NCBI GenBank assembly: GCA_020851565.1
Contig: JADZCN010000120.1
Coordinates: 1 to 64,000, forward strand
Reading direction: 5' to 3'
Source of the DNA: Acidobacteriota bacterium
GTDB taxonomy: Bacteria > Acidobacteriota > Vicinamibacteria > Vicinamibacterales > UBA2999
Length of the DNA: 64,000 nt
The first letter of the stretch is position 1. The number at the start of each line of letters is the position of its first letter. The translations under genes were made by a program, and so were the position numbers. This document shows positions 7,932-52,840 of the stretch, piece by piece. Under the pieces are notes generated by a model. That model ran no database searches. It worked only from the letters and a program-made list of their open reading frames with translations, and had not been told where the DNA came from.

Positions 7932-8144
7932 ATGAGCGTGGTTCGTTTGCTCGGGTTCGCCACGCTGCCGTGCGGGTGCGTCGTCGGGAAATACCGGGAC
8001 GTCGCCAGCACGCGCGAAGTGGTCTACGTGGAAGAGAAGGGCGCGGCGTGCGAAAGCCCGGCGCATCGGCGTAATCACACGGTGACGCCAGAGCGGGAAC
8101 GGTTTGCCAGCACGTTGATCTCGACGACGGCACGGGCGTCCTAG
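7932..8144 (+). CDS. Small conserved hypothetical protein with CGC motif
   Basis: 70 aa, purine-rich SD upstream, 'PCGCVVGKYRD...YVEEKGAACESPAHRRNH'. Confidence 0.55.
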   Translation: MSVVRLLGFATLPCGCVVGKYRDVASTREVVYVEEKGAACESPAHRRNHTVTPERERFASTLISTTARAS

Positions 8145-8150
8145 GGACTT

Positions 8151-8226
8151 GGGGCCTGGGACTTGGGTCTTGGGGCGAGCCCAGGAACCTGAGAACCTCG
8201 AGAACCTGAGAACCCCGCGAACCCGT
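8151..8226. repeat. Composite short tandem repeat (CTTGGGG-like then GAGAACCT-like)
   Basis: acttggggcctgggacttgggtcttgggg then gaacctgagaacctcgagaacctgagaaccccgcgaaccc. Confidence 0.7.
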
Positions 8227-18791: not shown

Positions 18792-18928
18792 GGGTTCTCA
18801 GGTTCTCAGGTTCTCGGGTTCTGGGGTTCTCGGGTTCTGGGGTTCTCGGGTTCTGGGGTTCGCGGGTTCTGGGGTTCTGGGGTTCTGGGGTTCGCGGGTT
18901 CGCGGGTTCTGAGGTTCCCGGGTTCTGC
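18792..18928. repeat. GGTTCTNN octamer tandem array, about 17 copies
   Basis: ggttctca ggttctca ggttctcg ggttctgg ... direct reading. Confidence 0.92.
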
Positions 18929-27301: not shown

Positions 27302-27357
27302 GTCTTGGGGGCTTGAGGTCTTGGGGCTTGGGGCTTGGGGCTTGGGGCTTGGGGGGC
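27302..27357. repeat. CTTGGGG heptamer tandem array
   Basis: tcttggggcttggggcttggggcttggggcttgggggg. Confidence 0.9.
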
Positions 27358-33859: not shown

Positions 33860-34369
33860 CTACTTGACCCGCTCCCAGTAGAGGGACTGCGTCACCCGCT
33901 CGCCGTTCTTCAGCGACAGCGTCAGGCCGTTGCCGTCCGGCGAGAAGGCGAAATGACGCACCTGGTTCGAGCCGACCCATGCCGGGTTGGACGAGCCGGC
34001 CACGTGGTGCGTGACGATGCCCCTCGCCTCGTCCACGGTGAAGGGCCCGAAGTACCCGAGGTACCGGCGATACGCCGCCGCGCGATCCGCATCGGTAGCC
34101 GGCGGCTGCGCCGCCTTGTTGGACGAGTGCATCAGCTGCGCGGACATGTGGCCGGACGGGTCGTAGGTGATGCGTCCCACGTCGTACGCGCCCGGGCGCG
34201 AGGGACCCCCATCGGGATCCAGGATCTGGTAGGTGACCAGCTGCCAGGTCCCGACCAGTCGGTCGCGCGCTGTCCCGGACCGTGGCTGTGCGGCCGGCGC
34301 CGCGGCCCCGGACACGATCGCTACCAACGCCACCGTCGCCGTCAGGGTCCTGATGCACATGGGGCGCAT
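33860..34369 (-). CDS. Lipocalin-like domain protein (paralogue of 38124..38759)
   Basis: 'LVGTWQLVTYQILDPDGG...ITYDPSGHMSAQLM...YFGPFTVDEARGIVTHHV'. Confidence 0.8.
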   Translation of the reverse strand: MRPMCIRTLTATVALVAIVSGAAAPAAQPRSGTARDRLVGTWQLVTYQILDPDGGPSRPGAYDVGRITYDPSGHMSAQLMHSSNKAAQPPATDADRAAAYRRYLGYFGPFTVDEARGIVTHHVAGSSNPAWVGSNQVRHFAFSPDGNGLTLSLKNGERVTQSLYWERVK

Positions 34370-38123: not shown

Positions 38124-38759
38124 CTACCTCGATCGCTGGAAGACGAGCGTCCGGGAGATGTCGGTTCCATCGGCCGCGCGCGAGGTAAAGCTCAGCTCGA
38201 GGGTGTCGCCCTTCACCCGGAAGTACCGCGTGAACTCCTTGCCCAGGTCGTCGGGGAACAGCGAGCCCTGGACGTGGTGCGTGACTGTCCCCCTTACCCC
38301 ATCTGCGCCATCTGCGCCATCTGCGGCTACTGCGGCTACTGCGGCATCTGCGGCTCCTGCGGTTCCTTTGCCATCTGCGGCGACGGTATCGACGTTGAAG
38401 GTGCCGAAGTACGCGTCATAGCCGAGGCGCACGCGCGCGTTCGCGGCGTCCTCCGGCGACGCGGGCTCGCCAATCGCCTGCGCGCGCCCCTGGCGCATCA
38501 TCTGCAGCGCCATGTGCCCGCTCGCGTCGTAGAAGAGGCGACCGATGGGCGCTTCGCCAAGCACCGCGTCGTTGACCACTTCCCCGCTCGCGCGGCGCAC
38601 CGTGCGGGTTTGCAGTTCCCACGAGCCGATCATCTGCTCGCGGGCGCTTCGCGTGGATCGCGGAGCGCCCGTGGACGGTGCCGACACCGAGCACGCCGCG
38701 CCGCCGACGGCGGCAAGCAGGAGGACGATTCCGGCGGATACGACGTGACGATGCTTCAT
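38124..38759 (-). CDS. Lipocalin-like domain lipoprotein with in-frame 9-bp repeat insertion
   Basis: 'YDAYFGTFNVDTV[AADGKGTAGAADAAVAAVAADGADGADGV]RGTVTHHV'; lipobox-like 'GGAACS'. Confidence 0.8.
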   Translation of the reverse strand: MKHRHVVSAGIVLLLAAVGGAACSVSAPSTGAPRSTRSAREQMIGSWELQTRTVRRASGEVVNDAVLGEAPIGRLFYDASGHMALQMMRQGRAQAIGEPASPEDAANARVRLGYDAYFGTFNVDTVAADGKGTAGAADAAVAAVAADGADGADGVRGTVTHHVQGSLFPDDLGKEFTRYFRVKGDTLELSFTSRAADGTDISRTLVFQRSR

Positions 38760-43153: not shown

Positions 43154-43277
43154 AGGAAACCACGAAGATACGAAGGCAATCACGAAGCCCACGAAGTCTC
43201 CTGGGAAAGCACCGCGATGCTCCCCCAATTGGCGCTTCGTGAGGCCTTCGTGTCCTTCGCGACTTCGTGGTTTCGCT
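43154..43277. repeat. CACGAAG repeat palindrome between convergent genes
   Basis: gaaaccacgaagatacgaaggcaatcacgaagcccacgaag ... cttcgtgaggccttcgtgtccttcgcgacttcgtggtttc. Confidence 0.85.
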
Positions 43278-44164
43278 TATCCGCGTTCCGGCGCGTCGAT
43301 CCGTTCGGTTTCGCCGGGGATGGGCCGGAACCGGCCCGCCTGCCAGTCGGCGCGGGCCTGCTCGATGCGCTCCTCTGAGCTCGAGACGAAGTTCCACCAG
43401 ATGTGCCGCGGTCCGTCCATCGGCTCGCCGCCGAGGAGGACGAACGTGGCCGGCGTGACGGCGCGGACGTCCACGGCCACGCCAGGCTTCAGAACGTACA
43501 GCGGCCCGGCGTTCAGAATCTGGCCGCCCATTTCCAGCTGTCCGTGGGTCAGGAAGATCGCCCGCTCGTCGTGATGGGCCGAGATGGGGAGCGCCGCGCC
43601 CGCGGCCAGCGTCACGTCGGCGAGCAGCGTCTCCCACAGCACCCGGACGGGCGACTGCACGCCGAGGAAGCTGCCCGCCACCACGCGCACCTGCGCGCCG
43701 GCGTCTTCCACCATCGGCAGTGTCGCTCGATCGTGGTGGGCGAAGACCGGGTCCGTTTCCTCGTGCGCCTTCGGGAGCGCCACCCAGAGCTGCACACCGC
43801 TGATGGGACCGCCGGCCGGCCGCGCGCAGCCCGGGGTCCGCTCAGAGTGCGCGATGCCCTTCCCCGCCGTCATCCAGTTCACGTCCCCGGGACGGATGGT
43901 GACCACGCTCCCCACGCTGTCCCGGTGCAGGAACTCGCCGGCGGAGAGGTAGGTGACCGTGGCCAGCCCGATGTGCGGGTGCGGCCGGACGTCCACGCCC
44001 TCGCCCGGCTGCAGGATGGCCGGCCCCATCTGGTCCAGGAAGATGAACGGCCCCACCATCTTCCGGCGCGAGGAAGGCAGCACGCGCTGCACCTGGAAGC
44101 CGCCGAGGTCGCGGACCCGCGGAACGATCTGCAGCTCGACGGACGGATGGACAAGGTCTGACAT
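43277..44164 (-). CDS. Pirin family protein
   Basis: '[46 protein letters not shown]...[17 protein letters not shown]'. Confidence 0.92.
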
Positions 44165-44228
44165 CTGCGGCTCTTCGTCATCTGCGCGTCTGCGGCCCTG
44201 CTTGTCTGCGCATCTGCGGCCTCGGTGT

Positions 44229-44618
44229 TCAGAGTTTCACGTCGTTCTTCAGCTCGACGACGATGACCTCGATGGGCTCGGTGCCCTTGTTCATGTCGCC
44301 GTGCTGCGTGTTGGGCGGATCCGCGTCCAGCCAGTACGCCTTCCCCGTCTCCCACGTCATCTTCGTCGTCGTCGCGCCCTTCGCGTCCACGACGTCCAGC
44401 GTGCCGCCCTTGAGCGCCACGATCGTGCGCCCGTGATCGTGCCGGTGCAGCGACAGCGGCTGGTTCGGCATGATGATCGACTTCCAGACCCTCACTTCGC
44501 TGTTCTCGAACTGCGGCTCGCGTCGCGTGCCCGCCGCCTGCTGCTGCACCGCGTCCACCGCCGCCGTCGCGGCGCAAATCGCCGCCGCCGCCCACACGCT
44601 CTTCCACATCGCTGTCAT
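44229..44618 (-). CDS. Secreted cupin-domain protein
   Basis: '[26 protein letters not shown]'. Confidence 0.75.
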
Positions 44619-44672
44619 CGCGTCACTCCTTGCCCCTGCACCCTTGCACCCTGCACCCCTGCACCCCTGCAC

Positions 44673-45644: not shown

Positions 45645-45648
45645 GTCG

Positions 45649-45725
45649 GGGTCAGGGGTCGGGGGTCGGGGTCGGGGGTCAGGGATCAGGGATCAGGGAT
45701 CAGGGATCAGGGATCAGGGGTCAGG
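45649..45725. repeat. GGTCAGG/TCAGGGA heptamer array
   Basis: ggtcaggggtcgggggtcggggtcgggggtcagggatcagggatcagggatcaggg... Confidence 0.9.
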
Positions 45726-52453: not shown

Positions 52454-52470
52454 GCAGGATCTACTGTAGC

Positions 52471-52603
52471 GAAGCACGGGGGTTCGAGCACGGGGGTTCG
52501 AAGCACGGGAGTTCGAAGCACGGGGGTTCGAAGCACGGGGGTTCGAAGCACGGGGGTTCGAAGCACGAACGTTCTAAGCACGGCGTTCAAGGCACGGTGG
52601 TTC
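52471..52603. repeat. 15-bp tandem array GAAGCACGGGGGTTC, about 9 copies
   Basis: Direct reading; GAA...TTC palindromic unit ends, 3' copies diverged. Confidence 0.93.
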
Positions 52604-52696
52604 GTGGTGGGTGGCGGCGGCCCGCGACGCGGCGCTCGGCCTGGGCAACGTCGCTACTCTGGATCACCTAGCTTCCCCCCACGCACTGTCCTTACC

Positions 52697-52840
52697 CCGC
52701 CCGCACCCGTTCGCACCCGTTCGCACCCGCCCGCACCCGCCCGCACCCGTTCGCACCCGTTCGCACCCGCCCGCACCCGCCCGCACCCGTTCGCACCCGC
52801 CCGCACCCGTTCGCACCCGCCGCACCTGTTCGCACCCCCC
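52697..52840. repeat. 10-bp tandem array CGCACCCGYY
   Basis: 52701-52780 is two perfect copies of a 40-mer built of four decamers, then further decamers. Confidence 0.93.

Follow-up and report, generated by a model that had tools for sequence, protein, structure and literature searches.

Dispersed heptameric repeats have been described in the genomes of Xanthomonas (unit GGGAATC) and Nostoc (unit GGGGA(C/T)T) (PMC4692102). In the intergenic regions of Xanthomonas, the 5' side of the heptamer arrays lies nearer to the ORF than the 3' side (28 vs 160 nt), 70 convergent inverted pairs are found, 7-11% of the repeats are non-intergenic, and quadruplex formation has been proposed as an explanation (PMC4692102). 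A different type of dispersed repeat is represented by the Rickettsia palindromic elements, fixed-length palindromes of 100-150 bp that form about ten families (Ogata 2000; PMC10969869; PMC4316617) and sit in frame within unrelated metabolic genes, dozens of genes being affected in total (PMC10969869, PMC4316617). Species-restricted families of related tandem repeats within one genome were identified by a survey of satellites in prokaryotes. In that survey, coding satellites often have units that are a multiple of three, coding and dispersed non-coding families are handled as separate classes, and transposed non-coding families of long repeats are described as rare (PMC6749651). No report of repeats of such kind in Acidobacteriota was found in the open-access literature searched.

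The 9-bp repeat described here, found in frame in a lipocalin-like gene of a soil-type Acidobacteriota bacterium, resembles the Xanthomonas and Nostoc heptamers in that short tandem units are spread across the genome. As in Xanthomonas, convergent pairs are frequent and the 5' end lies close to an ORF whatever its orientation: it is the end nearer to the gene in 33 of 38 intergenic arrays (median 15 vs 176 bp, p = 4e-6), independently of whether a gene start or stop faces the array. It differs from the Xanthomonas heptamers by the length of its unit and by the fact that about one third of the surveyed arrays lie inside genes. Moreover, the unit CGCAGATGN is devoid of any run of G and cannot form a G-quadruplex. 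Quadruplexes therefore cannot explain its architecture, for which another cause is needed. The repeat belongs to a wider kind of dispersed, polar short tandem repeat and not to the quadruplex class. With the Rickettsia palindromic elements it shares the presence of a dispersed non-coding repeat in frame in many unrelated genes (18 arrays here), at positions compatible with protein function, but it is a direct tandem array of variable length instead of a fixed palindrome of 100-150 bp. Like prokaryotic satellite families, it consists of related tandem repeats dispersed in one genome; unlike the classes of the satellite survey, this single short-repeat family occupies both the coding and the non-coding compartments.

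The insert of the lipocalin gene

The window, i.e. the whole 64,000-nt stretch of DNA analysed, contains two paralogous lipocalin genes, one of which carries the 9-bp repeat in frame (Table 1), as an earlier note on this DNA had claimed. The host gene scores 67.7 bits against the Lipocalin_5 profile, for a cut-off (gathering score) of 25, and the N-terminus of its product looks like a lipoprotein signal peptide, as judged by eye. The repeat, delimited by TRF at 38299-38381 with periods of 9, 18 and 27, encodes the peptide AADGKGTAGAADAAVAAVAADGADGADGV, flanked by FNVDTV and RGTVTHHV. The insert is 87 nt long, a whole number of codons but not of 9-bp units. Eight CGCAG words are found in the insert, against a maximum of three among 20,000 base shuffles. 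Its GC3 is 0.34 vs 0.87 in the remainder of the gene, as expected for DNA that has not evolved as coding sequence.

Table 1. Repeat-bearing and related features of the window.
Feature	Positions	Strand	Basis or remark
Lipocalin_5 (PF13924) gene, 211 aa	38124..38759	minus	Pfam E 1.3e-18; insert falls within the domain (residues 44-208)
In-frame 29-codon insert, degenerate 9-bp array	38295..38381	minus	Coding-strand unit CGCAGATGN, read as GCAGATGGC, Ala-Asp-Gly
Paralogous Lipocalin_5 gene without insert (in-window control)	33860..34369	minus	Reads YFGPFTVDEARGIVTHHV at the insert point
Degenerate non-coding copy of the 9-bp repeat	44162..44222	minus	Between pirin gene (43277-44164) and ORF 44229-44672
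Other short tandem repeat sites	18792-18926, 8144-8174, 27308-27354, 45648-45725, 52470-52604, 52702-52837		

The AlphaFold model of the protein (mean pLDDT 80.8) is rich in β-structure. The insert, with a pLDDT of ~52, is located between the long adjacent strands 114-125 and 155-166, while the flanking strands exceed 90. The earlier note had suggested modelling whether the insert lies in a surface loop; the model supports such a location, the insert being the floppy, low-confidence tip of a β-hairpin in the predicted fold, and a 29-residue Ala-Asp-Gly extension at this place is probably neutral or nearly so. A Foldseek search with the model returned weak matches to nitrobindin, lipocalins and the lipocalin-like EF0376, and a sequence search against the PDB returned no match up to an E value of 1.

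The in-window paralogue reads YFGPFTVDEARGIVTHHV at the insert point, exactly as the earlier note gave it. The position is likewise empty in all of the ~80 homologues examined, which cover many phyla (28-29 from same-order relatives and 51 from named genomes); the nearest one, 55% identical, displays an ordinary tight turn, YFGRYTVDEQAGTVTHHV. The examined homologues of distant genera, where the same insert would have spoken against capture, do not carry it. None of the same-genus genomes searched has the lipocalin gene, and these provide no pair of empty and filled sites at the DNA level. The second copy announced by the earlier note, in non-coding DNA, is real though degenerate, with three CATCTGCG words accompanied by imperfect ones. 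In the window as a whole, the pattern CGCAGATGNCGCAGATG is matched 10 times with up to 3 mismatches, for 1.8 expected by chance and a maximum of 6 in 100 shuffles. Other short tandem families are also present in the window, with units of 8 bp (GGGTTCTC), 7 bp (GGGGCTT and GGGGTCA), 15 bp and 10 bp.

A dispersed and polar family

The genome to which the window belongs is a metagenome-assembled draft of 6.06 Mb in 171 contigs, 88% complete. A two-unit pattern, with at most 2 mismatches, yields 600 loose matches genome-wide vs 24 for the reversed control. Three-unit matches number 101 in this genome, 19 in the sister genome G004 and 18 in G005, and in the wider comparison they are present in just 10 of 149 relatives at the order level and in 14 of the 297 genomes that sample the phylum. 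The distribution is patchy, with its maximum in the genome under study. Three genomes of a distant genus of the same phylum (G301, G322 and G335) harbor convergent pairs of the 9-bp repeat with arms ~20-50 bp apart; these would form tight hairpins, an arrangement unlike the wide pairs observed here. Genes for Ku/NHEJ were considered as a marker of the route of capture and dropped: among the 59 genomes searched, Ku is found in every repeat carrier, yet also in 44 of the 59 overall, and does not discriminate.

The arrays possess a common polarity. The sequence GACGCCGA precedes 14 arrays and follows none, and CGCAGATA/T is for the most part found downstream. Among the 38 intergenic arrays, an inverted convergent partner lies downstream of 13 and upstream of none; 13-15 of the arrays take part in convergent pairs. 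Such polarity is absent from the 8-bp family (17:12). The spacers between convergent arms share no sequence, so the inverted pairs do not constitute a transposable element built around a common core. A MITE was rejected on the same ground and because the insert in the isoleucyl-tRNA synthetase gene (IleRS) shows no target duplication.

Arrays inside genes

A census of 57 array loci was established from exact two-unit seeds among the matches listed (contigs to about C120) and from 20 sampled stretches of 20 kb. Genes were called by a home-made finder whose model of codon usage was derived from the window, and an array was considered internal when at least 40 codons separated it from either gene end. 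Automatic internal calls due to ORFs reading through upstream of their start (the 8-mer locus L281; L083/L068) were removed by hand. On this basis, 18 of the 57 arrays are well inside genes and in frame, the rest being intergenic or at gene edges. For 12 of these 18, in 11 genes, a Pfam domain spans the array (IleRS, NuoF, PhzF, an M20 peptidase and the lipocalin) or there are domains before and after it (ClpA twice, UvrA, two E2 acyltransferases, a kinase-TPR protein and a DinB-glyoxalase fusion); Pfam support is missing for three of the 18. The E2 and kinase cases are weaker when taken alone because their linkers are naturally rich in Ala, Pro and Ser. In-gene copies are located at loops and interdomain linkers. 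The same finder assigns ~91% of the sampled DNA to coding sequence, and arrays in genes are far fewer than random placement predicts (p about 1e-23); insertion or survival in genes is therefore strongly disfavoured.

The earlier note had proposed that the lipocalin insert was kept because its unit is a multiple of three. The dispersed 8-bp repeat GGGTTCTC, with 379 matches in the same genome at no more than 1 mismatch and none for the control, provides a genome-wide comparison that bears this out: 18 of 57 arrays of the 9-bp repeat are internal vs 0 of 39 for the 8-bp repeat (p = 3e-5). The raw computer calls give 19/57 vs 5/39 (p = 0.03). Of those five 8-bp calls, four are no more than ~80 bp from a predicted start; the remaining one precedes a signal-peptide start. 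The 8-bp family is essentially restricted to non-coding DNA.

The reading frames used within genes are far from equally represented (p = 2e-6): (P/S/A)SA occurs 12 times, QM 3, AD(G/D) 2 and HLR once, while IC and R-W/stop-R never occur. Residues specified by the preferred frames are small or polar and prone to disorder. This bias is compatible with selection that acts on the peptide product and not on the DNA; a bias of insertion is another possible source.

Comparison with sister genomes documents the age and behavior of several in-gene arrays. The IleRS insert measures 72 nt in the genome under study and 54 nt in G004, i.e. two whole units fewer, and is absent from all of the 15 other genomes compared. 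The large insert of ClpA, made of two arrays facing each other, is found in the same two genomes only, and UvrA is lengthened by repeat sequence in both. This distribution places capture before the two close species separated, and copy number has changed since. Unit-wise slippage is cleanly shown for IleRS alone; lengths at intergenic sites differ between the sister species by amounts that do not divide cleanly by 9. In ClpA (L218, G000:C5:92500-96400; L216), a QM-frame array is followed by a PSA-frame array after a spacer of ~100 bp, and in G004 the two arms are almost adjacent. At one intergenic site (L229:6870-7240, L212:1340-1590), the units are of the AATCCGCG type in the genome under study and of the CATCTGCG type in the sister, as though one array sequence had been swapped for another at the same position.

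Origin of the insert

The lipocalin insert has to be read against a background of arrays that share one short unit, occur at many unlinked sites and are over-represented in non-coding DNA (57 arrays, 18 internal). With a probability of roughly 85%, the insert represents a single copy of a polar 9-bp tandem repeat, (CGCAGATGN)n, dispersed over the genome, which multiplied in this lineage, probably of the Vicinamibacterales, and was captured in genes. The capture of an intergenic repeat by a coding region, put forward in the earlier note, gains support and extends well beyond one gene; we infer that the movement went from non-coding to coding DNA. A copy of the repeat would land in a gene by a templated or recombinational copying event, and most such arrivals would presumably be purged. 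Arrays at loop tips or in linkers would be tolerated as near-neutral, because gain or loss of units by 9-bp slippage never shifts the frame and because, among the six frames, some specify small residues prone to disorder ((P/S/A)SA, ADG).

Alternatively, a CGCAGATG word present by chance in the gene might have been expanded into the array by slippage, independently of the other copies. Slippage does alter copy number, as the two IleRS lengths attest, and imperfect units are found at both ends of the lipocalin insert. However, dozens of unlinked loci contain this unit, read in varied frames and lying on either strand with respect to the gene, and local slippage would not repeatedly make the common polar structure with its upstream GACGCCGA and mostly downstream CGCAGATA/T; such a local birth is unlikely. 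Somewhat less likely still is a linker or loop selected for a function in the lipocalin, for example as a binding or surface feature, its likeness to a genomic repeat being secondary. The AlphaFold model places the insert where the structure tolerates an extension, the frame is open across 29 codons, and frame use within genes is strongly non-random. Against this, no homologue has such an extension, the codon use of the insert is alien to the gene, and the same DNA occurs in unrelated enzymes. The least probable explanation, by a clear distance, is an artefact of assembly or binning. A metagenome-assembled genome in 171 contigs and 88% complete invites the suspicion, since repeats are error-prone, but the frame is preserved across many conserved genes, and the arrays of IleRS, ClpA and UvrA occupy the same places in a separate sister genome of ~90% DNA identity.

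This lineage offers a natural experiment on how essential proteins take in non-coding DNA and remain unbroken. Within one genome, a family with a unit divisible by three is found in genes and an 8-bp family is kept out, and the sister species display before, after and length variants. An architecture shared with the Xanthomonas heptamers by a unit unable to form quadruplexes makes the spread of such repeats testable by comparison. More speculatively, a dedicated and hitherto unrecognised process may spread polar short tandem repeats of unrelated units in unrelated phyla, anchoring their 5' ends at gene borders; in lineages with a unit divisible by three, it might also keep supplying core proteins with new disordered linkers of variable length. 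We regard this wider proposal as tentative, with the odds rather against it.

Two minor observations concern other copies. In the sister genome, a 579-codon ORF (L209, G004:C88:25200-28300) contains an array in the Ala-Asp-Asp/Gly frame, the same as that of the lipocalin insert. In the window, the predicted start codon of the pirin gene is complementary to the first CAT of the degenerate non-coding copy: the last CGCAGATG of this copy (44162-44169) holds the predicted ATG, and the 9-bp repeat may also supply start codons.
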